DNA of 64,000 nt from Pigmentiphaga sp. NML030171 (GTDB lineage Bacteria > Pseudomonadota > Gammaproteobacteria > Burkholderiales > Burkholderiaceae_B), in the NCBI RefSeq assembly GCF_002188635.1, contig NZ_NINX01000024.1, positions 124,001 through 188,000 of the forward strand, in the 5' to 3' direction. Both the position numbers and the translations under genes were made by a program. Within the stretch, counting starts at the first letter, position 1. Every line of letters begins with the position of its first letter. Positions 31,259 through 59,282 of the stretch are shown in pieces. The notes under the pieces are model-generated. The model was given only the letters and a program-made list of their open reading frames with translations. It made no database searches and was not told the DNA's origin.

Positions 31259-33145
31259 TCAGACCGCCCAGCAGGAACAGCCCAGCGCTCCGAAGAAGCC
31301 CCGGGCATCGGACACGGGCAGCTTCGATGCCCAGGCCCTGGCATGCTCGTGCCCATGCAGGCCGCAGGCTTGCGCGCAGCCGCACGCGGCCACCCGGCGG
31401 TAGCCCAGCGAATGGCGGCCGGCGCCCTCGGGCTCGGCCCAGGCGGCATAGCCGCCGAACAGGCGAGTGGGAGACCAGTCCGGCATCGGCGGCGGCAGGG
31501 GATTGTCGTCCAGGCCGGCGAATCCGCCCGCGCCGTACACGACACGGCCGCCCACCATGGTCAGCTCCGAGGTCAGGAAGGAAATCTCGTCCTCGGCGCA
31601 GGCGAAGAAATCCTTGTCGAGCACGATCAGGTCTGCCAACTGCCCTGGGGCGATGCGGCCCCGCCGCCCTTCCTCGTTCGAGAACCAGGCCACCTTCTCG
31701 GTCCACATGCGCAGCGCCGTCTCGCGATCCAGGCAATTGCGCCGGGGATACAGCGACAGCCCACCCACCGTCTTGCCGGTGATCATCCAGGCCAGCGACA
31801 CCCAGGGGTTGTAGGACGCCACGCGCGTGGCGTCGGTGCCCGCCGACACCTTCACCCCCTTTTCCAGCATGCGGGCGATGGGCGGCGTGGCCTCGGCCGC
31901 CGCGGCGCCGTAGCGTTCGACGAAATACTCGCCCTGGTAGGCCATGCGATGCTGCACGGCGATCCCGCCGCCCAGCGCGGCGATGCGGTCGATGGACCGG
32001 TCCGAGATGGTCTCGGCGTGATCGAAGAACCAGTTCAATCCCTTCAGCGGGATCTCGCGGTCGACCTTCTCGAACACGTCCAGCGCGCGCGAGATGGTCT
32101 CGTCGTAGGTCGCATGCAGGCGCCAGGGCCAGCGATTCTGCGCCAGGATGCGCACCACCTCCTCCAGGTCGCCTTCCATCTGCGGCGGCATCTCGGGACG
32201 ATGCTGGCGGAAATCCTCGAAGTCGGCGGCCGAGAACACCAGCATCTCGCCCGCGCCGTTGTGGCGGAAATAGTCGTCGCCCTGCTTGTACTGCACGCTG
32301 GAGGTCCAGTTCAGGAAATCCTCCTTTTCGTGCTTCGGCTTCTGCGTGAACAGGTTGTAGGCCAGGCGCACCGTCAACTCGCCGTCGTCGGCCAGCTTCC
32401 GGACCACCGCGTAGTCGTCGGGGTAGTTCTGGAAACCACCGCCGGCGTCGATCACGCCCGTCACCCCCAGGCGGTTCAGCTCGCGCATGAAATGCCGCGT
32501 GGAATTCACCTGGTAGTCGAACGGCAGCGTCGGGCCCTTGGCCAGCGTGGCATACAGGATCTGCGCGTTCGGCTTGGCCAGCAGCAGCCCCGTCGGATTG
32601 CCCTGGGCGTCGCGGGTGATTTCTCCCCCCGGGGGCTCGGGCGTATCCTTGGTATAGCCCACCGCGCGCAGCGCCGCGGCGTTCAGCAGCGCGCGGTCAT
32701 ACAGGTGCAGCAGGAACACCGGTGTGTCGGGCGCCGCCGCGTTGATCTCGGCGATGGTCGGCAGGCGCTTCTCGGCGAACTGGTGCTCGGTGAAGCCGCC
32801 CACCACGCGCACCCACTGCGGGGGCGGCGTGATCGCGACCTGCCGACGCAGCATGTCCATCGCGTCGGCCAGCGAACGCACGCCGTCCCAGCGCAGTTCC
32901 ATGTTGAAGTTCAGTCCGCCGCGTATCACGTGGGTATGGTTGTCGATCAACCCGGGCAGCACGCTCCGGCCGCCCAGGTCGATGATGCGGGTCGCCGGCC
33001 CGGCCAGGGCCATGACTTCCCGATCGTCGCCCACGGCCAGGAAGCGCCCGTCCTTGACCGCGACGGCGGTAGCCGACGGATTGGCCCGGTCCAGCGTGGT
33101 GATGCGGCCATGCCGCAGGATGACATCGGCGGTGGTGGCGCTCAT
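31259..33145 (-). CDS. YtcJ-like amidohydrolase with a Cys/His-rich C-terminal tail
   Basis: This 628-residue amidohydrolase_3 family enzyme has metal-binding NHTHV after GLIDN, a carboxylate/His set including LHATYDETI, FDHAETI and the late Asp in SAGTDATRV, and the composite-domain end GRIAPGQLADLIVLDKDF. Substrates of this group are amides or N-formyl compounds; they are mostly unassigned. After the usual end (about residue 580) there is a 45-residue tail with CGCAQACGLHGHEHA and GCSCW, which could bind a metal. It is probably the first gene of an operon with the MFS gene at 29642. Confidence 0.88.
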   Translation of the reverse strand: MSATTADVILRHGRITTLDRANPSATAVAVKDGRFLAVGDDREVMALAGPATRIIDLGGRSVLPGLIDNHTHVIRGGLNFNMELRWDGVRSLADAMDMLRRQVAITPPPQWVRVVGGFTEHQFAEKRLPTIAEINAAAPDTPVFLLHLYDRALLNAAALRAVGYTKDTPEPPGGEITRDAQGNPTGLLLAKPNAQILYATLAKGPTLPFDYQVNSTRHFMRELNRLGVTGVIDAGGGFQNYPDDYAVVRKLADDGELTVRLAYNLFTQKPKHEKEDFLNWTSSVQYKQGDDYFRHNGAGEMLVFSAADFEDFRQHRPEMPPQMEGDLEEVVRILAQNRWPWRLHATYDETISRALDVFEKVDREIPLKGLNWFFDHAETISDRSIDRIAALGGGIAVQHRMAYQGEYFVERYGAAAAEATPPIARMLEKGVKVSAGTDATRVASYNPWVSLAWMITGKTVGGLSLYPRRNCLDRETALRMWTEKVAWFSNEEGRRGRIAPGQLADLIVLDKDFFACAEDEISFLTSELTMVGGRVVYGAGGFAGLDDNPLPPPMPDWSPTRLFGGYAAWAEPEGAGRHSLGYRRVAACGCAQACGLHGHEHARAWASKLPVSDARGFFGALGCSCWAV

Positions 33146-33213
33146 GATTGCTCCTCGGTGGTGGACCTGGGTGACCGCCGTGCGCGGCCGGGAGCCGGCA
33201 CACGCGCGGAGGT

Positions 33214-33894
33214 TTACCTGGCCGGGTTGGGACCGATCCGCTCGCCGTGCTGGACGCGCTCCGCGCCATTGTGCACGTGGGTGATGGCATAGTCGATGCC
33301 CATGCCGTAGGCGCCCGAATGTTCCTTCACGATGCCGGTCACGGCGTCATAGGTCTCCTTGCGGGCCCAGTCGCGCTGCCATTCCAGCATGACCTGCTGC
33401 CAGGTCACCGGCACCGCACCCGCCTGCACCATGCGGTCCATCGCGTACTTGTGCGCATCCAGCGACGTACCGCCCGAGGCATCGGCCACCATGTAGATCT
33501 CATAGCCGCCCTCCTTCATCGCGCACAGCGCGAAGGTGGTGTTGCAGACCTCCGTCCAGAGCCCCGACACGACGATCTTCTTGCGCCCGCTGGCGGCCAG
33601 CGCGTCGCGCACGTTCTGATCGTCCCAGGAGTTCATCGAGGTGCGTTCGAGAATCTTGTTCTGCGGAAACACCGCCAGCAGCTCGGGATAGGTGTTGCCC
33701 GAGAAGCTGTCGGTTTCCACCGTGGTGATGGTGGTGGGGATATCGAAAACCCTGGCCGCCTTGGCCAGCGCCACGACGTTGTTCTTCAGGACCTGGCGGT
33801 CGATCGACTGCACGCCGAAGGCCATCTGCGGCTGCTGGTCGATGAAGATGATCTGGCTGTTCTGCGGGGTCAGGACGTCTAGATAATGAGACAT
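33214..33894 (-). CDS. isochorismatase-family cysteine hydrolase (YcaC-like)
   Basis: This 226-residue protein has the cysteine-hydrolase triad region: Asp in IIFIDQQ and Cys in VSGLWTEVCNTTFAL, with the conserved cis-peptide segment before it. The layout follows YcaC-type and nicotinamidase-like members, which hydrolyse small amides. The closing 40 residues are a short extension. It is flanked on the same strand by pirin (36 bases upstream) and the amidohydrolase, so the three may be cotranscribed; the substrate is unknown. Confidence 0.9.
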   Translation of the reverse strand: MSHYLDVLTPQNSQIIFIDQQPQMAFGVQSIDRQVLKNNVVALAKAARVFDIPTTITTVETDSFSGNTYPELLAVFPQNKILERTSMNSWDDQNVRDALAASGRKKIVVSGLWTEVCNTTFALCAMKEGGYEIYMVADASGGTSLDAHKYAMDRMVQAGAVPVTWQQVMLEWQRDWARKETYDAVTGIVKEHSGAYGMGIDYAITHVHNGAERVQHGERIGPNPAR

Positions 33895-33930
33895 GGCGGT
33901 TCTCCGTTGGGGAAACGATCAGGAAATGTG

Positions 33931-34632
33931 TCAGCCGGCCACGTCCACGAGGACGAGTTCGGTATCTTCGATGGCGGTCAGGCGTATCACGTCCTCGTCC
34001 CGGATCGCGGCGCCGTCCCGCGCCCGCAACTCCACGCCGTTGACGTCCACGCGGCCCGTGGCCGGCACCAGGTAGCCGTAGCGGCCGGCTCCCAAGCGGT
34101 ACTCCGCGGTCTCGCCCGCCTTCAGCGTGGCGCCGGAAACCCGCGCATCGGCACGAATGGGCAGGGCATCCTCGTCCCCCTGCATACCGCTGGCCAGGGC
34201 GACGAACTGACCCGAACGGTCGCCCTTGGGAAACGGCTTGGCACCCCAAGACGGCTGGCCGCCACGGCTGTCCGGAAAGATCCAGATCTGGAAGATGCGG
34301 GTCACGCCGGGCTCCAGGTTGTATTCCGAGTGCCGGATGCCCGAGCCCGCGCTCATGACCTGGACGTCGCCCGCCTCGGTACGGCCGCGGCTGCCCAGGC
34401 TGTCCTGGTGGGTGATGGCGCCTTCCCGGACATAGGTGATGATTTCCATGTCGGCATGCGGATGCGGCGGGAAGCCGGTGCCCGGGGCGATGGTGTCATC
34501 GTTCCAGACGCGCAGCGCGCCCCAGTTCATGCGGGCCGGGTCGGCATAGCCGGCGAACGAGAAGTGGTGCTTGGCATCGAGCCATCCGTGGTTGGCACCA
34601 CCCAGGCTCTCGTAGGGACGACGTTCGATCAT
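33931..34632 (-). CDS. pirin-family cupin protein
   Basis: This 233-residue pirin-like protein (YhhW type) has the metal-binding cupin motif in PPHPHADMEIITYV, a His in GAITHQDSLG, then SAGSGIRHSEYN and a second cupin half at the end. Bacterial pirins bind iron and can act as quercetinases. The start at 34632 follows GGAG by 6 bases. The gene is divergent from a LysR regulator at 34763; the 130-base region between them is AT-rich and should hold both promoters. This pirin/LysR arrangement is common in Proteobacteria. Confidence 0.92.
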   Translation of the reverse strand: MIERRPYESLGGANHGWLDAKHHFSFAGYADPARMNWGALRVWNDDTIAPGTGFPPHPHADMEIITYVREGAITHQDSLGSRGRTEAGDVQVMSAGSGIRHSEYNLEPGVTRIFQIWIFPDSRGGQPSWGAKPFPKGDRSGQFVALASGMQGDEDALPIRADARVSGATLKAGETAEYRLGAGRYGYLVPATGRVDVNGVELRARDGAAIRDEDVIRLTAIEDTELVLVDVAG

Positions 34633-34762
34633 GATGTTCTCCGCTTTCGTTGCTTCGATGAAGAGAACTATAGAAACTTGCCGACATGATTGAAATAGAA
34701 TTAATTGAAAACCATACTTTCCATTTTTTAGGTCAACATATCCACACGCCGGAAACGCATCC

Positions 34763-35683
34763 ATGAGCCGACTCCCCGACCTGGAAGCCTGGGCCATCTT
34801 CGCCAAGGTGGCCGAAACCGGTTCGTTCGCCCGGGCCGCGGCCGAACTGTCGCTGTCGCAGGCCACCGTCTCCAAGGCCGTCTCGCGCCTGGAAGGGCGG
34901 ATGAAGACCGTGCTGTTCCATCGCACCTCGCGTCGCATCTCGCTGACGGAAAGCGGACTGGCCGCCCTGGAACGCGCCTCGCGCATTCTGGAAGAAGGCG
35001 AGGCCGTCGAATCCGAAGTGACCGAGCAGTCCAGCAGCCCGCGCGGACCGATACGGATGACGGCCCCCATGTCCTTCGGCATCTCGCACGTGGCGCCGGT
35101 GCTGCCGGCGTTCATGGCGCGCTATCCCGAGGTCACCCTGGACGTGCACTTCAGCGACGAACAGGTCGACCTGATCGAGAAGCGCTTCGACCTGGCGCTG
35201 CGCATCTCCACGCTGGCCGACTCCAGCCTGCTGGTGCGCCGGCTGTGCACCGTGCGCATCCTGCTGGTCGGCTCCCCCGCCTACTTCGAGCAGCACGGCC
35301 GGCCCCGGCACCCGCGCGAACTCGCCGGGCACCGCGCCCTGCAGTACGCCTACGCGCGCGGCGGATCGAGCTGGCGCTTCCGCCATGCCCGTCATGGCGA
35401 ATTCACCCAGGCCATGCCCACGCCGCTGCGGGTGAACAATGCCGAGGCGCTGGCGCCCGCCTTGCGCGCGGGCGCCGGCCTGGCCCTGCAGCCGGAATTC
35501 CTGGCCTGGCAGGACCTGCAGTCGGGCGCGCTGGAAACGGCCATGGACGACTGGCAGGTGGACCCCATCGCGCTGCACCTGGTCACGCCGCCCGGACGCG
35601 GCAGGCCGGCACGCGTGCAGGCGCTGATGGAGTACCTGACGGCGCACTTCGTCGGCGAACCGTGGGCACGGGCCATCGACTGA
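34763..35683 (+). CDS. LysR-family regulator
   Basis: This 306-residue protein has helix-turn-helix GSFARAAAELSLSQATVSKAV and RTSRRISLTESG after it. It belongs to the CrgA-like branch, with the effector domain starting RGPIRMTAPMSFG. It is divergent from pirin at 34632, which it probably controls together with the isochorismatase-family and amidohydrolase genes downstream of pirin (inference from context). Confidence 0.92.
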   Translation: MSRLPDLEAWAIFAKVAETGSFARAAAELSLSQATVSKAVSRLEGRMKTVLFHRTSRRISLTESGLAALERASRILEEGEAVESEVTEQSSSPRGPIRMTAPMSFGISHVAPVLPAFMARYPEVTLDVHFSDEQVDLIEKRFDLALRISTLADSSLLVRRLCTVRILLVGSPAYFEQHGRPRHPRELAGHRALQYAYARGGSSWRFRHARHGEFTQAMPTPLRVNNAEALAPALRAGAGLALQPEFLAWQDLQSGALETAMDDWQVDPIALHLVTPPGRGRPARVQALMEYLTAHFVGEPWARAID

Positions 35684-35783
35684 CCCGGCCCGCCGCGTCA
35701 TCGGCCCAGGCGGCCGACACATGCCTGACACACGCGCCGACGATCATTCCCGCGGGCGCGAGGTCCATACAAAGGAGAAAACC

Positions 35784-36680
35784 ATGGCATGGCTGAAGAT
35801 CGCGGCGCTGGGCGCGGCGTGGGCGGTGGTCGGAGCGGCGCAGGCCGACGTCCCGACATCGCGGGAATACAAGGTGTTGCTCAAGCCCGCATTGTTCGCG
35901 GACCACCCCAAGAACGCATCCAACGCGTACCTGGCCGACCTGAAGGCCGCGCTGGCCTCCGCCGGCTTCGACCGCAGCATCGACGGCAGCTTCGCCAAGG
36001 ACAAGGAGCGCACCGTGCGCTTCTACGACTCGCCGGGCAGCTGCCAGCTGCGTGCGCAGTCCTATTCCTTCCGCGAACGCGTCAGCGACAAGCGCGAATC
36101 CACGCTGAAGTTCCGCTCGACCTCCCAGTCCGCGGCCGCGGGCGTCACCATCACCGGCAGCGAATCCGGCGCCGACTCCAAGTTCGAGATGGACAAGACC
36201 GCCTCGGCCACGGCCTATTCCCGCTCGACCAAGCAGAACTTCTCGAGCGGCAAGAACCTGAACAAGATGAAGGACGTCACCGACCTCTACCCCGTCGCGA
36301 CCGGCCTGGACATCGTGCGGGACGACCCGCTCGTCGTCGTGGGTGGCCTGTCGATCTGGGAAAAGACCTACGACGGCCCGGACAGCGACCTCGGCCAGCA
36401 AGGGGCCGATTTCACCGTCTCGCTCTGGTACCTCAACGAGAGCGACACCACGCCCGTCGTGGCCGAAGCCTCGTTCACGGTCGAGGCCAGCGGCGGCGAC
36501 TTCACCAACAAGGTCACCCAGCGCTCCGAGCTCATCTTCAACACCATGACCCAGATGAGTTCCTGGACGGCGCCCACCGCCATTCCGAAGACGAACTGGG
36601 TCTATCAGTACAACCCGTCGTTCTGCTCGAGCGGCCAGGGCGCGGAAATCGAAGCGTCGGCCACGGCGCAGCCGTTCTGA
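35784..36680 (+). CDS. exported protein of unknown function, possible CYTH-like fold
   Basis: This 298-residue protein has a signal peptide (IAALGAAWAVVGAAQA). AAAGGAGAAAACC gives a strong ribosome site before ATG 35784. I do not recognise the family with certainty. The order EYKVLL, RTVRFYDSPGSCQLRAQSYSFRER and ESTLKFRS resembles the first strands of CYTH/triphosphate-tunnel proteins (ExExK-like, then YFDT and RLR), but a periplasmic location would be unusual. The second half has alternating strand-like segments and one C-terminal Cys pairing with an earlier Cys at most. It stands alone, with a hairpin after its stop. Confidence 0.65.
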   Translation: MAWLKIAALGAAWAVVGAAQADVPTSREYKVLLKPALFADHPKNASNAYLADLKAALASAGFDRSIDGSFAKDKERTVRFYDSPGSCQLRAQSYSFRERVSDKRESTLKFRSTSQSAAAGVTITGSESGADSKFEMDKTASATAYSRSTKQNFSSGKNLNKMKDVTDLYPVATGLDIVRDDPLVVVGGLSIWEKTYDGPDSDLGQQGADFTVSLWYLNESDTTPVVAEASFTVEASGGDFTNKVTQRSELIFNTMTQMSSWTAPTAIPKTNWVYQYNPSFCSSGQGAEIEASATAQPF

Positions 36681-36688
36681 TTGCCGGC

Positions 36689-36708
36689 GCCCCGGCACGA
36701 ACCGGGGC
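36689..36708. terminator. hairpin after the exported protein gene
   Basis: GCCCCGG (36689-36695) and CCGGGGC (36702-36708) form a perfect 7-bp stem between two convergent genes. No T run follows, so the terminator call is weak. Confidence 0.35.
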
Positions 36709-36811
36709 GTCCGAGCTCGCGCGCAACGATGTACCGGCCGCGGCGGCTCCGGCTGCGGCAAGCTCGGCCGGCCAGCCCGAGGGGAGACGCTGACCGGCCA
36801 CGGATCGGCGC

Positions 36812-37531
36812 TCAGCGCCCGCGCGGACAGGTCATCGACGCCCGGTTGTCGCCGTTGAACACCAGGTCCAGTTGCGGCACGCCGGTCTGCTTCACCGCAT
36901 AGCGTCCGCTCGCGTTGGACAGCGGCCCGGTGAAGCTGACGCGTCCGTCCTTCAACTGATAACTGCCGCCCTTGGCACCCACCGCGTACTGGCCGCTCTT
37001 CTGCACCACGACGTCGGTATACGCGTAGTTCAGCTGACCGGCATCGAAGGTGTAGCAGGTGTACTTGCCGGGGGCGATGTCGGCGGCCTGCGCGGGAGGA
37101 GGCGCGCTCTGCGCCGGGGCCTGGACCGGGGCGGGCCGCCAGCCACGGCGCATGTCGTCCAGCGACTTGACGATGACCGGCGCCTGCTTGTCCAGCGTAT
37201 CGAGCGTCGCCGCCGGGCAGGCCCCCTGGGAAAAACCTTTCTGGTTCGCGATGCCGGCGATGCGGGCCGATTCGTCGCGCATCGCCTGTTCGTAAGCGCG
37301 CCGCAGTTTGTCACGCTGCGACGAGGACAGGCCGGCCGCCCCTATCAATCCGTCCAGTGCCCGGACGACCGGGCCCGCATCCCGCTTGCAGAAGTCCAAC
37401 GCCGCCTGGACCTGCGCGGTCTGCGTATTGGCGCTTTCGAGCATGCCCAATGGGTCGGGATCCGCCGCCAGGCTGGCTCCGGCCATGGCCAGGCCACAGA
37501 CTAGCGGGATGATGCGAGGAAAAACGTTCAC
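36812..37531 (-). CDS. exported protein of unknown function
   Basis: This 239-residue protein starts at GTG 37531 with GGAG 7 bases upstream, followed by a signal peptide (IIPLVCGLAMAGASLA). A helical part (about 25-130) has two Cys (FCKRDAG, QGACPAAT). A Pro/Ala-rich linker follows (PAPVQAPAQSAPPPAQ), then a small beta-rich domain (GKYTCYTF to SMTCPRGR) with two more Cys. I do not recognise a named family. The final domain resembles lipocalin-like or lysozyme-inhibitor-like small beta folds only in general shape. Confidence 0.7.
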   Translation of the reverse strand: MNVFPRIIPLVCGLAMAGASLAADPDPLGMLESANTQTAQVQAALDFCKRDAGPVVRALDGLIGAAGLSSSQRDKLRRAYEQAMRDESARIAGIANQKGFSQGACPAATLDTLDKQAPVIVKSLDDMRRGWRPAPVQAPAQSAPPPAQAADIAPGKYTCYTFDAGQLNYAYTDVVVQKSGQYAVGAKGGSYQLKDGRVSFTGPLSNASGRYAVKQTGVPQLDLVFNGDNRASMTCPRGR

Positions 37532-37715
37532 GGGAAGTCTCCGCAGTTCTTGTTGGCATATGGCCGGCAAGTCCGTGCATCGATCTTCCATGCTCCCCCG
37601 CACGGTCGGACTCCGGCCGCGGGCAAGCGTACCATCACCGTGCCGGGAACCGAAGCGCGCAACCGCCAGGGACTGGTAGACTCCCTCATCCTCCGGTCTT
37701 CCCAGGAGCCGTTCC

Positions 37716-38021
37716 ATGCGCCAGGCCATCTTCGGCGGGGTGCTCGTCCTCATCGTGCTTGCCGCCTGGGCCAGGCAGCAAGGCTGGATCGCGCTGCCCG
37801 ACAGTCTCATGCAGGCCCTCCTGCTATGCCTGCCGCTGGCGTTTCTTCCTCTGTACCTGCAAGGGCTGCGCGAGGGGGAACTCGTCATTCCGCCGCGCAC
37901 CATCCGGCGCCGGGAAACGCCCCTGCTGTTCTGGTTCGTGGCTGTGTTCCAGGCCGTCCTCGTGCTGACACTGCTGGCGTACCTGGCCGTCCAGTTGCTG
38001 GACAGCCTGGCGGCTGGATGA
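37716..38021 (+). CDS. small inner-membrane protein, unknown
   Basis: This 101-residue protein is nearly all hydrophobic, with three likely membrane segments (IFGGVLVLIVLAAWA, LMQALLLCLPLAFLPLYL, LLFWFVAVFQAVLVLTLLAY) and a short charged loop (REGELVIPPRTIRRRE). I do not recognise the family. It stands alone between two minus-strand genes. Confidence 0.65.
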   Translation: MRQAIFGGVLVLIVLAAWARQQGWIALPDSLMQALLLCLPLAFLPLYLQGLREGELVIPPRTIRRRETPLLFWFVAVFQAVLVLTLLAYLAVQLLDSLAAG

Positions 38022-38056
38022 GCCGGCGGGATGCCGGCTCGGACCTTCCTTCTGTC

Positions 38057-38743
38057 CTACTCTCGCGGCACCGTGGCGGCCGGTATCCGGACCTCCACAG
38101 GCTGGGCCTGCCCCGACCCATTCGGGACCTGCAGCGTCACCGTACCGCCGGCCGGCCGCATCCGCCGCGCCCGCTCCACCAGATCGGGACTCGATGACTT
38201 CTGGGCCAGCCCAGCCAACCGGGGCATCGGCGAGGCCACCGCTTCGACGAAGGTCACTTCGCCGTCGTAGCTCTTGAGGCCCGGTGGAATGGCCGTCGCA
38301 TCCGGCATCAGGATCTCGGTCGCCTTGGCCGTGAGCGTGGTCGTGGCCCGCGCCGGGCCCAGCACCTTGAAGCGGATGTTGCCCAGCGGCACGGTTCCGA
38401 TGGGCTGCGTGAGCGACGTGCCGTTGACCATCACGATGTGCAGGACGTTGCCGTCCTTGCGCCATTGAACCGCCGGCGTGACGCGGCCGGCCGCGACGGG
38501 ATCGATGGCCAGGATCTCCAGCGCCGCCGGATCGTAGGTAACCGTGGCATGGGCCGCCCCTACCGCGTGGGTGCCGGAGAACACGGCCACTTGTATGGCG
38601 CCTTCGGCGCCGGTCACGGCCGTCACCGAAGGATCGACGAAGAAGGCATCGCCGACGAACTGGGCATGCGCGGTGCCACTCATGGCTGCCGCCAGCGGCA
38701 GACCGGCCAACAGGGACCGGAGGATGAACGAACGAATACGCAT
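38057..38743 (-). CDS. exported cohesin-domain-like protein
   Basis: This 228-residue protein has a signal peptide (SLLAGLPLAAAMSGTAHA). Residues 35-165 have the layout of a cohesin fold: VTGAEGAIQVAVFSG, a strand with HATVTYDPAALEILAI, then VLHIVMVNG, GTVPLGNIRFKVLG and TTTLTAKATEI. Cohesins bind dockerin domains. The gene upstream, with only one base between its stop and this start, encodes a lipoprotein with a dockerin-like repeat. A direct partnership on the cell surface is therefore plausible (inference). The C-terminal 60 residues are Pro/Arg-rich and do not look like an anchor. Confidence 0.7.
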   Translation of the reverse strand: MRIRSFILRSLLAGLPLAAAMSGTAHAQFVGDAFFVDPSVTAVTGAEGAIQVAVFSGTHAVGAAHATVTYDPAALEILAIDPVAAGRVTPAVQWRKDGNVLHIVMVNGTSLTQPIGTVPLGNIRFKVLGPARATTTLTAKATEILMPDATAIPPGLKSYDGEVTFVEAVASPMPRLAGLAQKSSSPDLVERARRMRPAGGTVTLQVPNGSGQAQPVEVRIPAATVPRE

Positions 38744-38744
38744 G

Positions 38745-41063
38745 TCATTGCACCTCGATGATGAATCGCTTGGTCACGCCCGGGGTCAGGTCGCTGCCGG
38801 ACAGGGAATCCCCGCCCACCACCCTCGCATTACTGCTGAAGGTGATGAAATAGGTGCCGACTCCGTCCGGCGCGGCCAGGCCGCGCATCAGCACTTCGGT
38901 CTGCCCCCCCGGGATCGGCACCGAAGCGGAAACGCTGCGCACCGGCGCACTGCTGGTCAGTACCGTCTGGCCGGCGACGATGACCTCGAAGATGTCGTCC
39001 AGCGCTGAACCGTTGTCTCCCATGGTGATCAGGACGTCCGACGTGCTGCACCCGACGATCTCGGTCGCCTTGCCCAATCCGTCGCACATCGGCCACGACG
39101 CCTCCAGCGTGGCCGTGCTGACCGACGTGGGCGACGCGCTCGGGCAGTTGTAGTTCGCCGTCCCGTCCGAGTTGAAGCTGTAGCTGCCCTTGTCCGCGCT
39201 CAACGGCATCAGGACGCGATTCGCCGGCATCGTGGCCCGGCCCGCCGGCACCACCGCGCAGCGGTTGGTCACGAAACTCTCGATTGCGCCCATTACGCCG
39301 GCGGCGTCCAGCGCATTGCCGGCGGCATCGGCCAGGCCATCCAGCAGCTTCACGTAGAGATCCTCCGCATATTTCGCGAAGAAATCCGCCAGCGTGCGAG
39401 CCGCCGTATTGCTGCGCAGGATGCCCGCGACCACGCGCTTGCCGATGATCTGCTTGACCAGGTACCCCGCCCCCTGGCTGGCACCCATGCCGCACAGATG
39501 CTGCAGTCCGATGAAAGCCACTTCCGGCTTGACCAGCGCCGACTCGCCCGGCTTCAGGCTGAGCGGACTCACGGTCAGGTACAGCTTGGGATCGATGGGC
39601 TTGACGATCTCGCCCAAGGTGGACGCCACCGACAGCGTCGCGCTGATCGGCACGCAGAACTTCACGAACGCCGCCACGGCGCCGATCTCGATGGCGGGAC
39701 CGTCGGCGGGGATCACCGCGCCCGCGATGAAGATGGTGGCGGTGACCGCGCTGCAAGCCGCGCTGGCGATCGACGAGGCCTCGCCCAGCATGTCGGCGGT
39801 CTTCTTCAGCCGGCAAAGCTCGGGCAGCACGAAGTCGCAGATCTGGTCCGGCGAGATGGCGGCCGCCATGGGGCCGGCCGCGGCGTTCGCGGACACCTTG
39901 CCCAGCACCTCCTGGCTCTGGGCCTGGAACTCGCGCATGCCGTTGGCCAGCAGCGCTTTCTGGAACACCTTGGCCAGCGTGTCGCCATTGGGCCCGGCCA
40001 GCACGCGCTCGAGCTCCAGCCTGGCGTTGCCGAAGGCGCTGCGGCCGGCGGCCGCGACCTTGCGCAGCTGCTCGGCGTCCTGCGCGCTCAGGCCGCTCGG
40101 CTCGGCCACGATGGCATCGTGCTGCGCCTGCATCAGGCGATCGATCCGATCGAAGAAAGCGCGAACGTCCTGGGCCGCAGGCACCGCCGGCTGGAGCGGC
40201 GCCAGCAAGTCCAGCGCCAGGGTCTCGCTGGCCGCGCCGTTGACCGACACGACGACCTGCGCCTGCGCGTTGCGTGCCAGGCCGGCCGGAACGAGGAACG
40301 ACGCGTAGCCCGGCAGCATGCGGAATACCTGGGGCGAGGCGACGCCGTCCACCTTGATGGCCACCTGGGCTTCCGGATCCAACAGCGCCGGCGACACCAT
40401 CGCCACCACGGCTCCCGGATAGGCCTGGGGATTCAGCAGGGCCGACGGCAGTTCCTGGCCGGCGGCGGCCGCCTGCATGGCCAGCGCGACATCGGCGTCG
40501 TCGACCTTGCCGTCCAGATTGATGTCGGCACGCGCGACCTGGATCTCGTCCAGCGTGTTCAGGCCCCCGACGTACTGGCCCAGGCGCATGGCGTCGACCA
40601 GGCCGGGCTTCGCATTGCCGGCGATGTTGCCGATCTTCGAGGGAATGCCGAATTCGGCATACGGCGAGTTACCGGCATCCATCACCACGACTGCGGCGCT
40701 GGCCTCGGCCACGGACTGACCGCCCGAGATGGCCTGCACGGTGGCCGTTACCGGGCCCGCCTTGCCGAAGGACGCCGAGACGCGCTGCCCCGTGGCTCGC
40801 TGTCCATCGCTGAACGTCCAGCGGTATTGGTCGATCTTCGTGCCGTCCGTCACGGCGGCGACACTGAAGCCTACCGGCTTGCCCACCGACACATTGCTGC
40901 GATCGGCTTGAACTTCGATCACGGCCTTGCTGCTTGATGCCGGAGGCGGCTCCTCGCCGCCCGGCTTGGCGCCGTCGCCGCCGCAGGCGGCCAGCGTCAG
41001 CACGATACTACCCGCCAGCGTCCACCATAGACGGCGAACGCCGGTGCTCATCGATCCCTTCAT
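38745..41063 (-). CDS. large lipoprotein with PKD-like and dockerin-like domains
   Basis: This 772-residue protein has a lipobox LTLAAC at about residues 22-27, so it is membrane-anchored. After a short GGDGAKPGGEEPPPAS linker, residues 45-130 look like a PKD domain (YRWTFSDGQRATGQRVS). Residues 145-195 look like a dockerin: a degenerate first half GLVDAMRLGQYVGG and a clear calcium-loop second half ADINLDGKVDDADVALAMQ. The remaining 570 residues are not assigned; they include a long helical part and Ala-rich hydrophobic stretches (ATIFIAGAVIPADGP). A start at 41051 is also possible. Its stop and the ATG of the cohesin-like gene are one base apart. Confidence 0.72.
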   Translation of the reverse strand: MKGSMSTGVRRLWWTLAGSIVLTLAACGGDGAKPGGEEPPPASSSKAVIEVQADRSNVSVGKPVGFSVAAVTDGTKIDQYRWTFSDGQRATGQRVSASFGKAGPVTATVQAISGGQSVAEASAAVVVMDAGNSPYAEFGIPSKIGNIAGNAKPGLVDAMRLGQYVGGLNTLDEIQVARADINLDGKVDDADVALAMQAAAAGQELPSALLNPQAYPGAVVAMVSPALLDPEAQVAIKVDGVASPQVFRMLPGYASFLVPAGLARNAQAQVVVSVNGAASETLALDLLAPLQPAVPAAQDVRAFFDRIDRLMQAQHDAIVAEPSGLSAQDAEQLRKVAAAGRSAFGNARLELERVLAGPNGDTLAKVFQKALLANGMREFQAQSQEVLGKVSANAAAGPMAAAISPDQICDFVLPELCRLKKTADMLGEASSIASAACSAVTATIFIAGAVIPADGPAIEIGAVAAFVKFCVPISATLSVASTLGEIVKPIDPKLYLTVSPLSLKPGESALVKPEVAFIGLQHLCGMGASQGAGYLVKQIIGKRVVAGILRSNTAARTLADFFAKYAEDLYVKLLDGLADAAGNALDAAGVMGAIESFVTNRCAVVPAGRATMPANRVLMPLSADKGSYSFNSDGTANYNCPSASPTSVSTATLEASWPMCDGLGKATEIVGCSTSDVLITMGDNGSALDDIFEVIVAGQTVLTSSAPVRSVSASVPIPGGQTEVLMRGLAAPDGVGTYFITFSSNARVVGGDSLSGSDLTPGVTKRFIIEVQ

Positions 41064-41227
41064 AGGATCCCCCCGGTATGTGTTGCGGTTTGTTTTCGGT
41101 GTTCTGGCAATACCCCTGCCATCGCACGTAAAAGTACCCGCTTTCTCGTAACTCTTTGAATTTAGATGCTACAAGAGGTAGCAAGCGCTAACACGCATGA
41201 ATGAAGTAGGATCGAGGAGACTTTCTC

Positions 41228-41887
41228 TCACGCGCCCCCGGCCAGCCCTCGCTTGGCAGCCGCCTGCGCCGTGGGATTCGGCGTGGGCTCGCCGATCTTG
41301 CGCAGCGTGTTCCGGTCGGTATGGTGGAACGGCTCCGCCTGGCCGGGGATGACCAGTATCGTGTCCTGCTCGTAGGACCAGGTGCCGTCGTCGTTGATCG
41401 TGACCGTGATGGTGTAGCTCTCGGTCTTGAATGCGTATTCCAGGAACGGATTCGACACGATCCCGTTCGTCAGCGAACCCCGCACGGCATGGAGCGTGAA
41501 GCGCCGCGCGTCGGGTGAGGCCTGGCCCACCGCCATCGCCGTCTGCCCTCGCGGGATCGACAGCGTCTGCATCACCGCCCCCGTCGCGGGCTCCCACAGC
41601 CAATAGCCCACCTGGTCGTGGAAAGTTTCGACGTCATCCGGCTTGACGATGCGGGTGTGATAGCGCAACCCGTAGAACAATTGCGGACCGTTGGTCTGCG
41701 CATCGATGGGCTGGAGCTCCATGTGCTCGATGAACGCCTGCTTCTCGGGGCCGTCCGCCTTGGGGTTGATGTCCAGCCCGCGCGCGCCCGTCCAGATGCC
41801 GGCCATGCCGGTCAGCGGCCCGAGGTTGGCCAGCGTGTGAACATCCGGTTCCGGCTCGGTATAGATGTCCTTGGGATAGTTTTCCAT
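41228..41887 (-). CDS. nitrobindin-like heme-binding beta-barrel protein
   Basis: This 219-residue cytoplasmic protein of the THAP4/nitrobindin (FABP-like) family has the hallmark GIWTGARG after the start. Later come DQVGYWLWEPATGAVMQ, WSYEQDT and a C-terminal His in FHHTDRNTLR, a candidate heme ligand. Family members bind heme and react with NO or peroxynitrite. The length is slightly above the usual 160-200 because of the N-terminal 30 residues. It lies 30 bases from the bestrophin gene on the same strand. Confidence 0.85.
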   Translation of the reverse strand: MENYPKDIYTEPEPDVHTLANLGPLTGMAGIWTGARGLDINPKADGPEKQAFIEHMELQPIDAQTNGPQLFYGLRYHTRIVKPDDVETFHDQVGYWLWEPATGAVMQTLSIPRGQTAMAVGQASPDARRFTLHAVRGSLTNGIVSNPFLEYAFKTESYTITVTINDDGTWSYEQDTILVIPGQAEPFHHTDRNTLRKIGEPTPNPTAQAAAKRGLAGGA

Positions 41888-41917
41888 GGTGGGTCCAGGG
41901 GGTGGGGATGAAAGATA

Positions 41918-42829
41918 TCAGCTCAGCACGATGGTGTCCGACCGGTCGGCTTCGGGCGGCAGCTTCTCGCCCAGCATCTCGCGCAGGGTCGATTCGATCA
42001 TGCCGGACATCGCGTCCAGGGCGAGGTCGTTCGGCTCCAGGCCGAAAGGCTCTTCGATCTCGGCCGCCAGGGCTTCCAACGCGAAGAACGTATAGGCGAT
42101 GAAGGCCACGATCACCGGCGTCATGGCGCCGATGGCATCGATCAGGCCGAACGGCAGCAGCAGGCAATACAGATAGATGGTGCGATGGATCAGCACCGCG
42201 TAGGTGAAAGGGATGGGCGTCGACGCGATCCGCTCGCAGCCGCCCAGCGCCTCGCTCAGCTTGCGCAGCGACGCTTCCATCGGTGGCACGAGCACGGGGT
42301 CCAGGGAGCCGTCGCGGCGCCGTTCACCCACCCAGCGTCCGGCCTGTAGCAACAGCATGGCGGGCTTGTAGCGAGCCTGGCCGATGAAGGCCGCGCCCTC
42401 GTCGCCCAGCAGGCGCCGCAAATCGCCGCCGGCATCGCTGTTCCGCAATTGATGACGCAAGGCGTGCACAAAGGCCGCCAGGCACATGGCGAACTCGCGC
42501 GCCTTGTCCGGCGCGTCGGCCAGGGTCAGGGCCTGCCGGACCAGCGAGCGCGTCTCGTTCAGCAGCGTGCCCCACAGGCTGCGGGCCTCCCAATAACGCG
42601 CGTAGCTGGTGCTGTTGCGAAAGCCGAGAAAAATGGCCAGCGTCAACCCGATCAGCGAGAACGGCACGAAATTGAGCTGCACCTTCCATTCGAAGACCTG
42701 GCCGTGCAGCACGGTGACCAGGACGGCGAACAGCGTCGCCGCTGCCAGTTGCGGCAGGATGCCGGGCAGCACCGAGCCGCGCACGATGAACAGCATGCGC
42801 AGCCAGTGCGGGCGGGGCCGGATGATCAT
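41918..42829 (-). CDS. bestrophin-family anion channel protein
   Basis: This 303-residue membrane protein matches bacterial bestrophins (YneE type): RMLFIVRGSVLPGILPQL near the start, FVPFSLIGLTLAIFLGFRNSTSYARYWEAR with its selectivity-region Phe residues, a central TPIPFTYAVLIHRTIYLYCLLLPFG and an acidic C-terminal PFGLEPNDLALDAM. Bestrophins form pentameric chloride or cation channels. It is followed by the nitrobindin-like gene, perhaps cotranscribed. Confidence 0.92.
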   Translation of the reverse strand: MIIRPRPHWLRMLFIVRGSVLPGILPQLAAATLFAVLVTVLHGQVFEWKVQLNFVPFSLIGLTLAIFLGFRNSTSYARYWEARSLWGTLLNETRSLVRQALTLADAPDKAREFAMCLAAFVHALRHQLRNSDAGGDLRRLLGDEGAAFIGQARYKPAMLLLQAGRWVGERRRDGSLDPVLVPPMEASLRKLSEALGGCERIASTPIPFTYAVLIHRTIYLYCLLLPFGLIDAIGAMTPVIVAFIAYTFFALEALAAEIEEPFGLEPNDLALDAMSGMIESTLREMLGEKLPPEADRSDTIVLS

Positions 42830-42982
42830 GCGTGCTCGCCGTCGAAGATCAACAGAACAGAATGGGCGGATTATACGTAGGTCGGAAGACCCGCCCGTAC
42901 ATGGGCCGTCCCCAGGCGCCCGTTGCCGTGTCGATCTGCCGCTCTTGCTACCCCCGCAGCTGGCGGCCGGTCCCCCTCCCCG

Positions 42983-43963
42983 TCACTGCTGCTCGATGCC
43001 CGCCGCCTTGACGAGCTTCGTCCATCGGGCGATTTCGACTTTCTGGAACTCCGCCAGCTCCTGGCGGGTTCCCGCAATCGGCTTCCATGCGTTGTCGCCG
43101 AAGTACCGGGCGGCCTCCTGCGATCGCATGATGGGAACGATGAGCGCGTTGAGCTTGTCGGCGACGTCGTCCGGGGTACCCTTGGGCGCGAACACCGCCA
43201 GCCAGCCGCTGGCCTCGTAGCCGGGAACGCCCTGCTCGGCTATCGTCGGAATGTCCTCATAGCCGGGCATGCGCGTGGGCGTGGACACGCCCAGGGCCTT
43301 GAGCTTGCCCGCGCGCACGTGCGGCATCACCGCCGGCGCGTCGCCGAACACGATGTCGATCTGCCCCCCCATCACGTCCGTGACGGCCAACGGCAGCGTC
43401 TTGTACGGCACATGCAGGATGTCGATGCCGGCAAGCTCCTTGAGCACTTCGCCGCCGGCCCTGGACGAGGAATTGCCGGAGCCGAACGTCAGCTTGCCGG
43501 GATTCTTCCGGGCCGCGGCGATCAGCTCCTGCACGTTCTGGTAAGGCGCGCCGGGCGCGACCGTCAGTACCACGCCACCCACGATCATCGCGGTGATGGG
43601 CACGAAATCCGCCACGGGGTCGTACGGAAGCTTCTTGAAGAGCGCGAGGTTCGCGGCATGCGTCGTATTCGTCCCGACGACGATGGTGTATCCGTCCGCG
43701 GGCTGGCGCAGGACGTGTTGCAAGGCGATGAATCCGCTGGCGCCGGGCTTGTTGTCGACGATCACCGGCTGCTTGGTGATCTCGGTGATGTGCTTGCCGA
43801 GGAAGCGGGCAGCCAGGTCCGTCGTCGTGCCGGCGCCGAACGGCACGACGATGGTGATGGGCTTGCTGGGGAAGTTCCCGGCCTGGGCCTGCGCCTGCGG
43901 CGAGGCGGCCAGGGCCAGCGGCCCCGCCAGCACGAGCGCCTGCAATTTCTGGATCGTTCTCAT
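42983..43963 (-). CDS. Bug-family periplasmic solute-binding receptor
   Basis: This 326-residue receptor has a signal peptide (ALVLAGPLALAASPQAQA) and the Bug core NFPSKPITIVVPFGAGT, VIVDNKPGASGFIA and PADGYTIVVG. It is the last gene of a minus-strand operon after a MaoC-type hydratase and an acyl-CoA dehydrogenase, so its ligand is probably a carboxylic acid that is then activated and beta-oxidised (inference). TctA/TctB partners are absent. Confidence 0.93.
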   Translation of the reverse strand: MRTIQKLQALVLAGPLALAASPQAQAQAGNFPSKPITIVVPFGAGTTTDLAARFLGKHITEITKQPVIVDNKPGASGFIALQHVLRQPADGYTIVVGTNTTHAANLALFKKLPYDPVADFVPITAMIVGGVVLTVAPGAPYQNVQELIAAARKNPGKLTFGSGNSSSRAGGEVLKELAGIDILHVPYKTLPLAVTDVMGGQIDIVFGDAPAVMPHVRAGKLKALGVSTPTRMPGYEDIPTIAEQGVPGYEASGWLAVFAPKGTPDDVADKLNALIVPIMRSQEAARYFGDNAWKPIAGTRQELAEFQKVEIARWTKLVKAAGIEQQ

Positions 43964-44030
43964 GTCGTGTCTCCTTTGGTGTCCGTCCGTGCACGTCCGG
44001 CGGGTGACCGCCCGGACCGCATCCCGGCAG

Positions 44031-45170
44031 TCACATGCGCATCGCCTTGGCGATGATGCTGCGCTGGATCTGGGAAGTTCCCCCGCCTATGGTCGATTGC
44101 ATGCCCTCGCGGAAATAGCGCTCCATGTCGGACTCGGGCAGCATGCTGTGTCCGCCCAGGATCTGCATGCCCTGGCGCGTCACCGTCTGCAGGGTCTCGG
44201 ACGCCATCAGCTTGGCCATGCTGACTTCCCGCGAGCAAGGCAAGCCCCGCGAGGCCATGTCGGCGGCGCGATACACCATCAGGCGCGACGCGTCGACCGC
44301 GGTCTGCATGTCGGCCAGCATGTGGCGGATCACCTGGAAGTCGTATATCGGCTGGTCGAACTGGATGCGCTCGTGCGCATAACGCAGGGCATCGCTGACG
44401 GCCTGCTGCGCGTTGCCGACGTAGGCGGCCGACACGGCTATCCGCTCGAGCTCCAGATGATCGGTGATGATGCGCCAGCCGTCCCCCGGCTCGCCCAACA
44501 TGTTGGCATCGGGCACCCATGCGTCGTCCACGAATATCTCGGTGGTACCGGTGGCGCGGCGCGCCATCGTCGGCAGGCGCCGGATATCCAGCCCCTTCGT
44601 GTCGTTGGGCACCAGCAGCACCGACAGGCCCTTGTGCTTCTTCGCTTCCTTGTCTGTGCGCACCAGCATCGCGATCACCACGTTCCTTGCCGCCGCGCCG
44701 GAACACCACAGCTTCTGGCCCCGGATCACCCAGCCCTGGTCGCGCGGCTCGGCCCGCGTGCGCGTCGACGCCGCGTCGGAGCCGGCCTGGGGCTCGGAGA
44801 TCGAGATCGAGAAACGCAGGTCTCCCCGCATGAACGCGGGAAGATAGCGCTCTTTCTGCTCCGGGGTGCCGAACTTGACGATGTTCATGCCGGTGAACGT
44901 CGCGACCATGAAAGCCGTCGCGAAGTCGAAGCCATAGCGCGCCAGTCCCTCGCACATCAATGCGTAGTCGAAGATCGTGCCGCCGTCGCCGCCCTGCTCC
45001 TCGGGTATCAGCAGGCGCAGCCAGCCCAGCTTGGCCACCTTTTCATAGGCTTCGTAGGGATAGGCGCGGTCGATGTCGCACTTGCGCACATACTCGCGGC
45101 CGATCTCCTGCTCCATCACGCGCGCGACGGTGTCGCGCCACAAGACCTGCTCTTCGTTCAGGAAATCCAT
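44031..45170 (-). CDS. acyl-CoA dehydrogenase
   Basis: This 379-residue FAD enzyme has the usual three-part fold. The N-terminal helical part starts MDFLNEEQVLWRDTVA. The middle beta part has FSISISEPQAGSDAAS, the FAD/substrate signature. The C-terminal part includes DFQVIRHMLADMQTAVDASRL, the catalytic-base region and QILGGHSMLPESDMERYFRE. The start is placed at 45170, where the family begins, rather than 27 bases upstream. It oxidises an acyl-CoA to the enoyl-CoA; the adjacent MaoC hydratase would add water next. The chain is probably short. Confidence 0.93.
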   Translation of the reverse strand: MDFLNEEQVLWRDTVARVMEQEIGREYVRKCDIDRAYPYEAYEKVAKLGWLRLLIPEEQGGDGGTIFDYALMCEGLARYGFDFATAFMVATFTGMNIVKFGTPEQKERYLPAFMRGDLRFSISISEPQAGSDAASTRTRAEPRDQGWVIRGQKLWCSGAAARNVVIAMLVRTDKEAKKHKGLSVLLVPNDTKGLDIRRLPTMARRATGTTEIFVDDAWVPDANMLGEPGDGWRIITDHLELERIAVSAAYVGNAQQAVSDALRYAHERIQFDQPIYDFQVIRHMLADMQTAVDASRLMVYRAADMASRGLPCSREVSMAKLMASETLQTVTRQGMQILGGHSMLPESDMERYFREGMQSTIGGGTSQIQRSIIAKAMRM

Positions 45171-45200
45171 GTCGTTCTCTCGATGGAAAGATGGCAATGA

Positions 45201-45647
45201 TCATTGGGCCGGCAGGCGCTGGCGCCGCACGAGCAGGCTGAACTCGCAACTCAGCACGGTTTCGTCGCGCTGGTTGACCGCGACGAGCTTCGTCGTCGCG
45301 ATGCCGTGCCTCTCGCCTTTGTCGCGCAGGTTGATGATTTCGCTCTCGGCATGCAGGGTGTCGCCGATGAACGTAGGCTTGAGGAAACGCAGCTTGTCCA
45401 CGCCGTAGAAGGCTTCGACGACGCTCGAATCGAAACCGAGCAACGCATTCACGACCACGAACACCAGGCCGCCCTGTACGACGCGCTGGCCGTAAAGAGA
45501 TCGCTTGGAAAACTCCGCGTCCGCATGGATGGCCAGCCAGTTGCCGGTCAGGCCGCAGAAATTGACGACGTCCGTCTCGGTCATGGTGCGGCCACCGGAG
45601 CGGCGGCGCTGGCCCAGGGACAGTTCGTCGAAAGGCTGGGTAATCAT
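45201..45647 (-). CDS. MaoC-family hot-dog dehydratase/hydratase
   Basis: This 148-residue single hot-dog protein has the (R)-hydratase dyad region (NFCGLTGNWLAIHADAEF, with Asn/Asp and His) and VVQGGLVFVVVNALL after it. MaoC-type enzymes hydrate enoyl-CoA or remove water from 3-hydroxyacyl-CoA. It is the first gene of the minus-strand operon with the acyl-CoA dehydrogenase (30 bases after) and the Bug receptor. The 466-base divergent region upstream carries its promoter. Confidence 0.9.
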   Translation of the reverse strand: MITQPFDELSLGQRRRSGGRTMTETDVVNFCGLTGNWLAIHADAEFSKRSLYGQRVVQGGLVFVVVNALLGFDSSVVEAFYGVDKLRFLKPTFIGDTLHAESEIINLRDKGERHGIATTKLVAVNQRDETVLSCEFSLLVRRQRLPAQ

Positions 45648-46113
45648 CGAATCCGGGCCTCCATTCGAGCGGATGGCCGAATTCTAGATTCTTATTTCGT
45701 TTTTAAAAGTCTAATTTCATTTTAATTATTTGATCGGCAGGTGAAAAAGCGTCCGGAGCAAGCCAATTCCGGCCAGACATGAGGCGTGTCATCGATACCA
45801 AACCATTGATATTTCTGGGAAATTCTCCGGAGCATCTCGCTTCCGCCGCGTCGAATCCCGCTTCGCGAGCGACACGCTAGGACTTTCCCTAGGTCATGGG
45901 CATGACGATGTCCCTGTCCGTGAACCCGCGCCGTTGGACGCCCCCTTGTATCGCCGCCCCGGACGCGCCCGGGCACTTCTTCATGAGTTTTTCGCGCTTG
46001 ACCCTGGTCTAAGCAGACAATTAATATTTTAGAACGGTCGGTCCAATATTTGGAATTTACGCGATGCCGGGCCGGCGGGCGCACTCGGTACACATGACAA
46101 GGACCACCCCACC
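45648..46113. promoter_or_regulatory. long AT-rich divergent control region
   Basis: This region has no gene I can support. The part next to the MaoC start (about 45680-45740) is very AT-rich. Near the other end, 46014-46060 holds AACGGTCGGTCC followed by the short palindrome CCAATATTTGG, which looks like a TetR- or IclR-type operator. It separates two divergent operons that share a Bug-receptor theme, so a common regulator (perhaps the IclR gene at 49791) is likely. Confidence 0.45.
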
Positions 46114-58577: not shown

Positions 58578-58607
58578 TGCAAACTGCGACGGATAAAGCG
58601 AAGACCC

Positions 58608-59282
58608 ATGAACGATATGCATCAGGATGATCCAGAAGGCAGTACCGAGTCGCTCCCGCCCGTTGTAGCGGAACTCTCGCAACTGATGGTGCATTTGCTC
58701 AAAGGCGTGTTGTACCGCCAGGACGACGAGCGCCTATGGGCCAGTCTGCTGAGCCTGCAGGCGCGTGTACGGGAGCAGGCGGCGGTGTTGTTGCTGGATC
58801 TGGTGCTGGACGAAGCCGAGGGCTACGCCTTCCTCAAAAGCCAGCCGGAGCCGGAGGATGTGGACGCCACACCCCGTCCGCCGCGCCTGATCGCGCGACG
58901 GCCGCTGTCCTACCCGGTCAGCCTGATGTTGGCCTTGCTGCGCAAGCGCCTGGCCGAATCCGACGCCAGCGGCGGCGATACCCGGCTGGTGCTGTCGCGC
59001 GAGGATATCGCCGAATTGATGCGCGTGTTCCTGCCGGACGGCACCAACGAGGCGCGCCTCGTCGACCAAGTGGATTCGACCATCACCAAGGTGGTGGAAC
59101 TGGGGTATCTGCGCAAGCTCAAGCCCGTTGCCGGCGCAGCTCAGCAGGCACCTCGCTACGAGGTGCGGCGCATCCTCAAGGCGTTCGTCGATGCACAGTG
59201 GCTGGCCGACTTCGATGCGCGCCTGGAGGGCTATCGCACCGCATTATCAGGTGCCGATCGCGACAAGGAAGCTGGCCGATGA
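58608..59282 (+). CDS. jetB: Wadjet defence protein JetB (DUF4194)
   Basis: This 224-residue protein of DUF4194, the MukE-like winged-helix subunit of Wadjet, binds JetA and the SMC dimer. Visible are LSQLMVHLLKGVLYRQDDERLW at the start, ARVREQAAVLLLDLVLDEAEGYAFL, RRPLSYPVSLMLALLRKRLAE, and a winged-helix end TKVVELGYLRKLKP with RYEVRRILKAFVDAQWL. Its stop overlaps the jetC start (ATGA at 59279). Confidence 0.92.
   Translation: MNDMHQDDPEGSTESLPPVVAELSQLMVHLLKGVLYRQDDERLWASLLSLQARVREQAAVLLLDLVLDEAEGYAFLKSQPEPEDVDATPRPPRLIARRPLSYPVSLMLALLRKRLAESDASGGDTRLVLSREDIAELMRVFLPDGTNEARLVDQVDSTITKVVELGYLRKLKPVAGAAQQAPRYEVRRILKAFVDAQWLADFDARLEGYRTALSGADRDKEAGR

Follow-up and report, generated by a model that had tools for sequence, protein, structure and literature searches.

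A dockerin-like lipoprotein and a cohesin protein encoded side by side in Pigmentiphaga: a candidate non-cellulosomal pair

What might a lipoprotein with a dockerin-like domain and its neighbor, an exported cohesin protein, accomplish together in a betaproteobacterium? The question is raised by a window of 64,000 nucleotides of Pigmentiphaga sp. NML030171 (RefSeq assembly GCF_002188635.1, contig NZ_NINX01000024.1, positions 124,001 to 188,000), i.e., the whole stretch of DNA that was analyzed. Gene A (38745-41063) encodes a lipoprotein of 772 amino acids (aa) composed of a PKD domain, a dockerin-like domain, a middle part that is largely helical in a low-confidence model, and a C-terminal beta domain, and gene B (38057-38743) encodes a 228-aa exported protein with a cohesin domain. 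Both genes, and all of their features mentioned below, lie on the minus strand, and a single base (38744) separates the TGA of A from the ATG of B. Our analysis leans, by a modest margin of belief, towards a two-gene, non-cellulosomal dockerin/cohesin pair in which A binds B as an envelope anchor, a reading that is favored because of the adjacency of the genes, their joint presence, and Pfam-based neighborhoods of the same two modules elsewhere.

The layout given by a first-pass annotation of this DNA, with the same coordinates, strand, and one-base gap, agrees with the positions of the open reading frames (ORFs), and its description of B as an exported protein with a cohesin fold was supported as well. 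A signal peptide was recognized by eye (residues 1-27, ending in AHA before QF; 38663-38743), and the Pfam family Cohesin (PF00963) matched B with 29.5 bits, above the cut-off of 24.1. The domain spans residues 40-149 (38297-38626) and was also supported by an AlphaFold2 model and Foldseek. Structure prediction of the single protein, one of the checks proposed in the annotation, was based on four sequences and gave a best model with a mean pLDDT of 66 and a pTM of 0.54, in which 114 residues have values of 70-90 and 11 are above that range. In a Foldseek comparison of this model with the Protein Data Bank (PDB), the top row was 2xdh (E 1.4e-6; TM score by target length, 0.58), and rows 1-23 were all cohesins, cohesin-dockerin complexes, or scaffoldins according to their titles, with TM scores by target length of 0.35-0.71, the highest being that of 3ul4; they were followed by the adhesin domain CLIPPER and then by integrins. 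B is therefore assigned a predicted cohesin beta-sandwich fold with medium confidence. The structure 2XDH is reportedly that of a non-cellulosomal cohesin of Archaeoglobus fulgidus (Voronov-Goldman 2011). In the comparison with the most distant orthologue, the predicted strand at residues 100-108 is identical.

The lipoprotein nature of A and its PKD-like domain, both noted in the first pass, were likewise supported. The lipobox L24-A-A-C27 (40983-40994), identified by eye, is invariant in all five aligned rows, and the PKD domain (residues 49-123; 40695-40919) was detected by Pfam PKD_4 with an E value of 3.5e-9, its best PDB match being a collagenase PKD chain (E 0.0009). The dockerin-like domain follows at residues 144-200 (40464-40634). 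The Dockerin_1 profile (PF00404, cut-off 22.9) scored A with 21.4 bits in the protein scan and 27.0 bits in the genome search, and the latter gave 24.7, 24.7, 24.4, and 21.6 bits for the four orthologues. The calcium loop ADINLDGKVDDAD, called dockerin-like in the first pass, is present at residues 179-191, but only one of the two loops is canonical. This second F-hand loop (residues 180-191; 40491-40526; DINLDGKVDDAD) is kept in five of five rows, one of which has a G-to-S exchange at loop position 6, and alignments place a degenerate first loop at residues 146-157 (40593-40628; NIAGNAKPGLVD). An hhalign comparison of four of the five A rows (all but L044) with 14 chosen dockerins extended over the two F-hand halves, which are spaced as expected, with a probability of 73%, and its score of 27.7 compares with at most 13.1 across 20 column shuffles. 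The dockerin set comprised 10 of 13 peptides from 18 loci, three from long cohesin/dockerin frames, and one sulfatase tail; an incomplete peptide (L070), the second strand of L149, and a near copy (L155) were dropped. The identification of the putative dockerin of A is sequence-based.

The distribution of the genes, a survey of which had also been suggested at the outset, speaks for the proposed pairing as well. Of 268 family genomes, five, all from a single genus, contain A, and cohesin matches occurred in exactly these 5 of the 11 genus genomes (own genome included), in each case over the Pfam cut-off; in this search at E 0.05, 2 of 14 control genomes matched, one of them over the cut-off. 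In all five genomes, A and B are adjacent and 0 or 1 base apart. The genome of strain NML030171 has one cohesin match at E 0.05, and its sole Dockerin_1 match at E 0.01 is A. Searches of 268 genomes of the family, 300 of the order, and 349 of the phylum revealed no full-length relative of A outside the genus. Partial matches concerned the PKD domain in three genomes (G699, G978, and G1088) and the C-terminal domain in G1114, which carries 91 of the last 97 residues of A. The last 152 residues as a query hit only the own genome among the 300 order genomes.

Neighborhoods of the two modules are not confined to Pigmentiphaga. Cohesins were matched at E 0.001 in 22 of the 369 genomes of a class sample and at E 0.01 in 50 of 300 Burkholderiales genomes, own genome included, and Dockerin_1 was sought in these cohesin-positive genomes only, at E 0.01 and 0.05, respectively; of the 14 control genomes of these wider searches, 1 matched for cohesin and 2 and 3 for dockerin. 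With the own genus excluded, a cohesin lay within 5 kb of 8 of the 12 dockerin matches from the class sample and of 13 of the 47 from the Burkholderiales, compared with 0.05 and 0.39 expected under the presumption of 4-Mb genomes and uniform placement. Six of these near-cohesin dockerins in the class sample and two in the Burkholderiales lie in a separate frame, and two and 11, respectively, have the length of the cohesin frame and were taken to be in the same frame. When frame size was used as a proxy for protein class, a dockerin within 5 kb accompanied 14 of 33 Burkholderiales cohesins in frames of >1000 aa and 2 of 11 in frames of up to 400 aa; the class sample gave 2 of 4 for >1000 aa, 3 of 9 for 400-1000 aa, and 6 of 16 for up to 400 aa. 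Three long Burkholderiales frames (L159, L160, and L161; 2,508 to 8,702 aa) contain the modules as cohesin-dockerin-cohesin twice and as dockerin-cohesin once, and the succession of dockerin and then cohesin within these chains is the order of A and then B. As in A, the first dockerin loop of these three proteins looks imperfect on inspection by eye.

A number of observations have to be set against an anchoring pair. The Dockerin_1 score is below the cut-off of 22.9 in the protein scan of A and for one orthologue (21.6 bits), and A has a degenerate first calcium loop instead of the two canonical loops of a type I dockerin. In the structure model of A (mean pLDDT 33), a pLDDT of 60 is reached only in blocks within residues 61-120; the dockerin region lies at about 20-36, and the helices predicted there (156-163, 172-177, and 189-201), all with a pLDDT of <40, do not amount to a confirmed helix pair. 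On the side of B, the mean pLDDT of the five models spans 66 to 34, and a PDB search with the sequence reached cohesins only at E 0.8, after an unrelated chain at 0.16. Six of the 11 genus genomes are without the A/B pair, sulfatase-type proteins with dockerin-like tails share the genome with A and B, and none of the 37 Burkholderiales cohesins in frames of 400-1000 aa has a dockerin within 5 kb, so a cohesin by itself is no predictor of a nearby dockerin.

The last point also bears on a rival explanation, which we regard as rather improbable but as the most serious competitor, namely, that A uses its dockerin-like domain as a calcium-stabilized structural spacer packed on the neighbor domains and that the partner of B is something else. 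All four mid-sized frames that were checked (L090, L091, L108, and L112) encode type II secretion-like secretins that carry a cohesin at the C terminus; cohesins without a nearby dockerin are in line with this explanation, as is the degenerate first loop of A. A further argument comes from a Photobacterium lipoprotein (lipobox by eye) that shares the C-terminal beta domain of A (residues 676-772; 38748-39038) with 46% identity over 94 aa and an hhalign probability of 98.5%. This protein contains PKD-like and TIG domains, too, and has D-x-D-x-DG calcium-type repeats (by eye) instead of a dockerin. The strict adjacency and constant joint presence of A and B, however, and the proximity of dockerins and cohesins in other genera are not what a mere spacer would lead one to expect. 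Secretins with a cohesin domain in type II secretion were not encountered in the open-access papers searched, among which subscription journals are mostly missing. Apart from the secretins, three cohesin proteins of 345-382 aa (L121, which is the same as L102; L122; and L123) carry a hydrophobic segment at the N terminus and the cohesin at the C terminus, and two of them (L122 and L123) adjoin a pseudopilin-like frame, as judged by eye; these proteins are probably parts of secretion systems.

The degenerate loop and the patchy presence in 5 of 11 genus genomes could also be understood if A and B were relics in which dockerin/cohesin binding has been lost and which are kept because the PKD, middle, and beta domains have other, unrelated functions. 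This explanation appears to be the least probable of those considered, in view of the purifying selection on both genes compared with the four orthologues (Ka/Ks of 0.08-0.18 for A and 0.15-0.29 for B), which includes the dockerin region itself (Ka/Ks of 0.10 and 91% identity with the most distant orthologue).

The sulfatase-type proteins deserve closer consideration. Contig C22 of the own genome encodes two such lipoproteins (58187-60523 and 61667-63820; L138 and L146; lipobox by eye) that terminate in F-hand motifs, the second of them with one clean loop. At E 0.01, the Dockerin_1 search did not list their tails. A scanned relative has the Pfam domain Sulfatase and a tail with a Dockerin_1 score of 17.2 bits, and those of three relatives reached 19.2, 19.9, and 20.1 bits, all of them under the cut-off. 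Additional Pigmentiphaga sulfatase-type lipoproteins with dockerin-like C termini were observed at L126-L128. The initial statement that no carbohydrase is attached to the pair holds for A and B, in which the Pfam scan revealed no carbohydrase domain, glycosidase, or carbohydrate-binding module; elsewhere, the genome carries these enzymes with dockerin-like tails. B might be a small shared socket whose cohesin takes several dockerin clients, including A and the two C22 lipoproteins. The occurrence of sulfatase-type proteins with C-terminal double F-hand motifs in the own genome and in relatives fits such a socket, which we nevertheless hold to be quite unlikely. The distributions are mismatched: a full-length sulfatase is present in 7 of 11 genus genomes, among them three (G190, G197, and G198) without a cohesin match, and G195 has A and B without a full-length sulfatase match. 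Moreover, the sulfatases appear to be lipidated themselves and would need no anchor, and the Dockerin_1 search missed the tails in the own genome. Since the distributions of sulfatase and A/B in the genus differ, sulfatases may be partners of B but are not obligatory ones.

If A and B indeed form an anchoring pair, A would be exported, lipidated, and probably retained in the outer membrane. Glycine follows the lipobox cysteine at position +2, a residue for which the Lol rule predicts sorting of the lipoprotein to the outer membrane. B, which has no recognizable anchor, would be exported by means of its own signal peptide, and its cohesin domain would be bound, presumably in a calcium-dependent manner, by the dockerin of A with its one intact calcium loop. 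The PKD and beta domains of A may face the periplasm or the outside. With a single dockerin in A and a single cohesin in B, the expected stoichiometry is 1:1, without chains or arrays, and the resulting complex could serve to fix B to the envelope or to complete A.

A different kind of anchoring is suggested by the 27 small cohesin frames of both samples, which were read singly with ad hoc patterns for PEP-CTERM tails and calcium loops. A PEP-CTERM-like tail was recognized in 12 of them. For 9 of the 12, an ORF with a calcium-loop motif lies on the same strand within 1.5 kb; the corresponding figure for the 15 others is 4, and 5 of these 15 extend past the end of the sequence so that their tails were unread (G289, G342, G473, and G665 twice). 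The genomes are not all independent, as G665, G343, G348, and G464 are each represented twice. In eight of the nine cases (L120, L124, L056, L058, L060, L130, L133, and L167), the neighbor is at most 130 bases away, and the gap at L059 is 779 bases. As a control, the calcium-loop motif gave four matches in 220,765 bases of 11 sequences, which include Pigmentiphaga loci, and all four are A or its orthologues. Pfam placed 4 of the 12 tails over the cut-off (20.7 bits) and 6 under it (14.0-20.2), two having no match, and 6 of the 12 cohesin domains were above the hmmscan cut-off. Among the nine neighbors, Dockerin_1 was over the cut-off for L120 only; it was under the cut-off at E 0.01 for L124, L060, and L130 and very weak for L133 (E 2.9), and the neighbors at L056, L058, L059, and L167 had no Dockerin_1 match and only weak EF-hand matches. 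Two loops with a spacing of 28-31 residues are found in four of the nine. The neighbors comprise a reprolysin-type protease (L120), a sugar dehydrogenase (L130), a multicopper oxidase (L060), and proteins with Ig or RHS repeats (L124 and L056). On the level of sequence, the PEP-CTERM-like cohesin neighborhood is real, and naming all of the partners dockerins is not yet justified. A combination of PEP-CTERM with dockerin, with or without cohesin, was not found in the open-access literature searched, which mostly does not cover subscription journals.

These loci resemble A and B in that a small cohesin protein and a larger, exported-looking protein are encoded by same-strand neighbors; the difference is that the anchor resides on the cohesin there and, as a lipid, on the dockerin protein in Pigmentiphaga. 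B terminates in IPAATVPRE, and PEP-CTERM was absent from it in a Pfam scan at E 10. One might tentatively go further and suspect a widespread proteobacterial envelope coupling module not meant for plant fiber, which would consist of an exported dockerin or calcium-loop protein and a small cohesin, encoded as neighbors or fused, and in which the anchor would be interchangeable, often PEP-CTERM-like on the cohesin and, in Pigmentiphaga, a lipid carried by the dockerin protein. This generalization is doubtful, and it is made less likely by the small number of tails and neighbors that Pfam calls over the cut-off. A separate group of cohesin proteins with calcium-type repeats (L057, L131, and L171) has the common tail KLIPxxIxIINSxLLx, possibly a new sorting signal.

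How novel is such a pair? According to the accessible parts of the respective papers, cohesin and dockerin modules occur in diverse bacteria and archaea that are not thought to be cellulolytic, archaeal versions bind (PMC9012536), and a pair from A. fulgidus is in use (PMC9705933). The corresponding part of the review PMC12484212 contains nothing further on proteobacteria. The original suggestion that a device of this kind has not been described was thus too strong, considering the published non-cellulosomal modules (PMC9012536 and PMC9705933, as far as accessible) and the similar neighborhoods in other proteobacteria. Like the A. fulgidus system, whose cohesin 2XDH is the top structural match of B, the Pigmentiphaga genes combine a cohesin and a dockerin outside a cellulosome; unlike the archaeal pair, for which binding was shown, they are known from sequence, and A is lipidated and has a degenerate first loop. 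In ANME archaea, the modules also serve outside cellulose degradation, and dockerin partners include envelope proteins, but some ANME proteins have up to five cohesins (accessible text of PMC9012536), in contrast to the one cohesin and one dockerin described here. With the clostridial cellulosome, A and B share homologous modules, whereas a scaffoldin with repeated cohesins, a carbohydrate-binding module, and a glycosidase are missing from the two proteins. A cellulosome was rejected on the grounds of the single cohesin, the absence of a scaffoldin, and A as the only Dockerin_1 match at E 0.01, no genome-wide search for glycosidases having been made. As in a non-cellulosomal pair, both modules are encoded in one genome by linked genes and without a scaffoldin, the dockerin half being atypical in this case. 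A search for lipoprotein dockerins with cohesins in betaproteobacteria yielded no paper that is related by its title in the open-access literature searched, with subscription journals mostly uncovered. The Pigmentiphaga pair is a variation of the known non-cellulosomal theme, and the PEP-CTERM neighborhoods are the more novel lead.

Cohesin/dockerin pairs, with dissociation constants of 10^-9 to 10^-11, belong to the strongest protein-protein couplings and are exploited in engineering (PMC9705933, in its accessible part). In a Gram-negative bacterium, a free cohesin together with a dockerin on a lipoprotein would, if true, represent a minimal natural version of this coupling. The neighborhoods found supply candidates for specificities that would be new, and they suggest a connection of cohesins with PEP-CTERM anchoring that can be tested.

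With respect to the origin of the locus, the GC content of the three kb containing A and B (67.6-70.1%) is inside the range of the surrounding positions 33000-45999 (58.9-70.5%), and a foreign base composition was rejected. Spread by plasmids was rejected as well; the plasmid collection gave the C-terminal domain of A once, in Photobacterium, and nothing for B. Scans of the sequence revealed no promoter (0.4 in shuffles) and two terminators (1.8 in shuffles), and an NCBIfam search at E 1 gave no match. The C-terminal tail of B (residues 167-228; 38060-38245) consists of a variable part, with 34% identity at residues 167-195 in the most distant orthologue, and a better conserved predicted hairpin. 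In G197, the one of the six pair-less genomes that was compared at the locus, a segment of about 3.6 kb (about 37640-41255) is absent, and 82 bases lie between the matching flanks. This segment contains A, B, and a 101-aa ORF (37716-38021, plus strand) that is convergent with gene B, has hydrophobic segments as judged by eye, and is absent there like the two genes.

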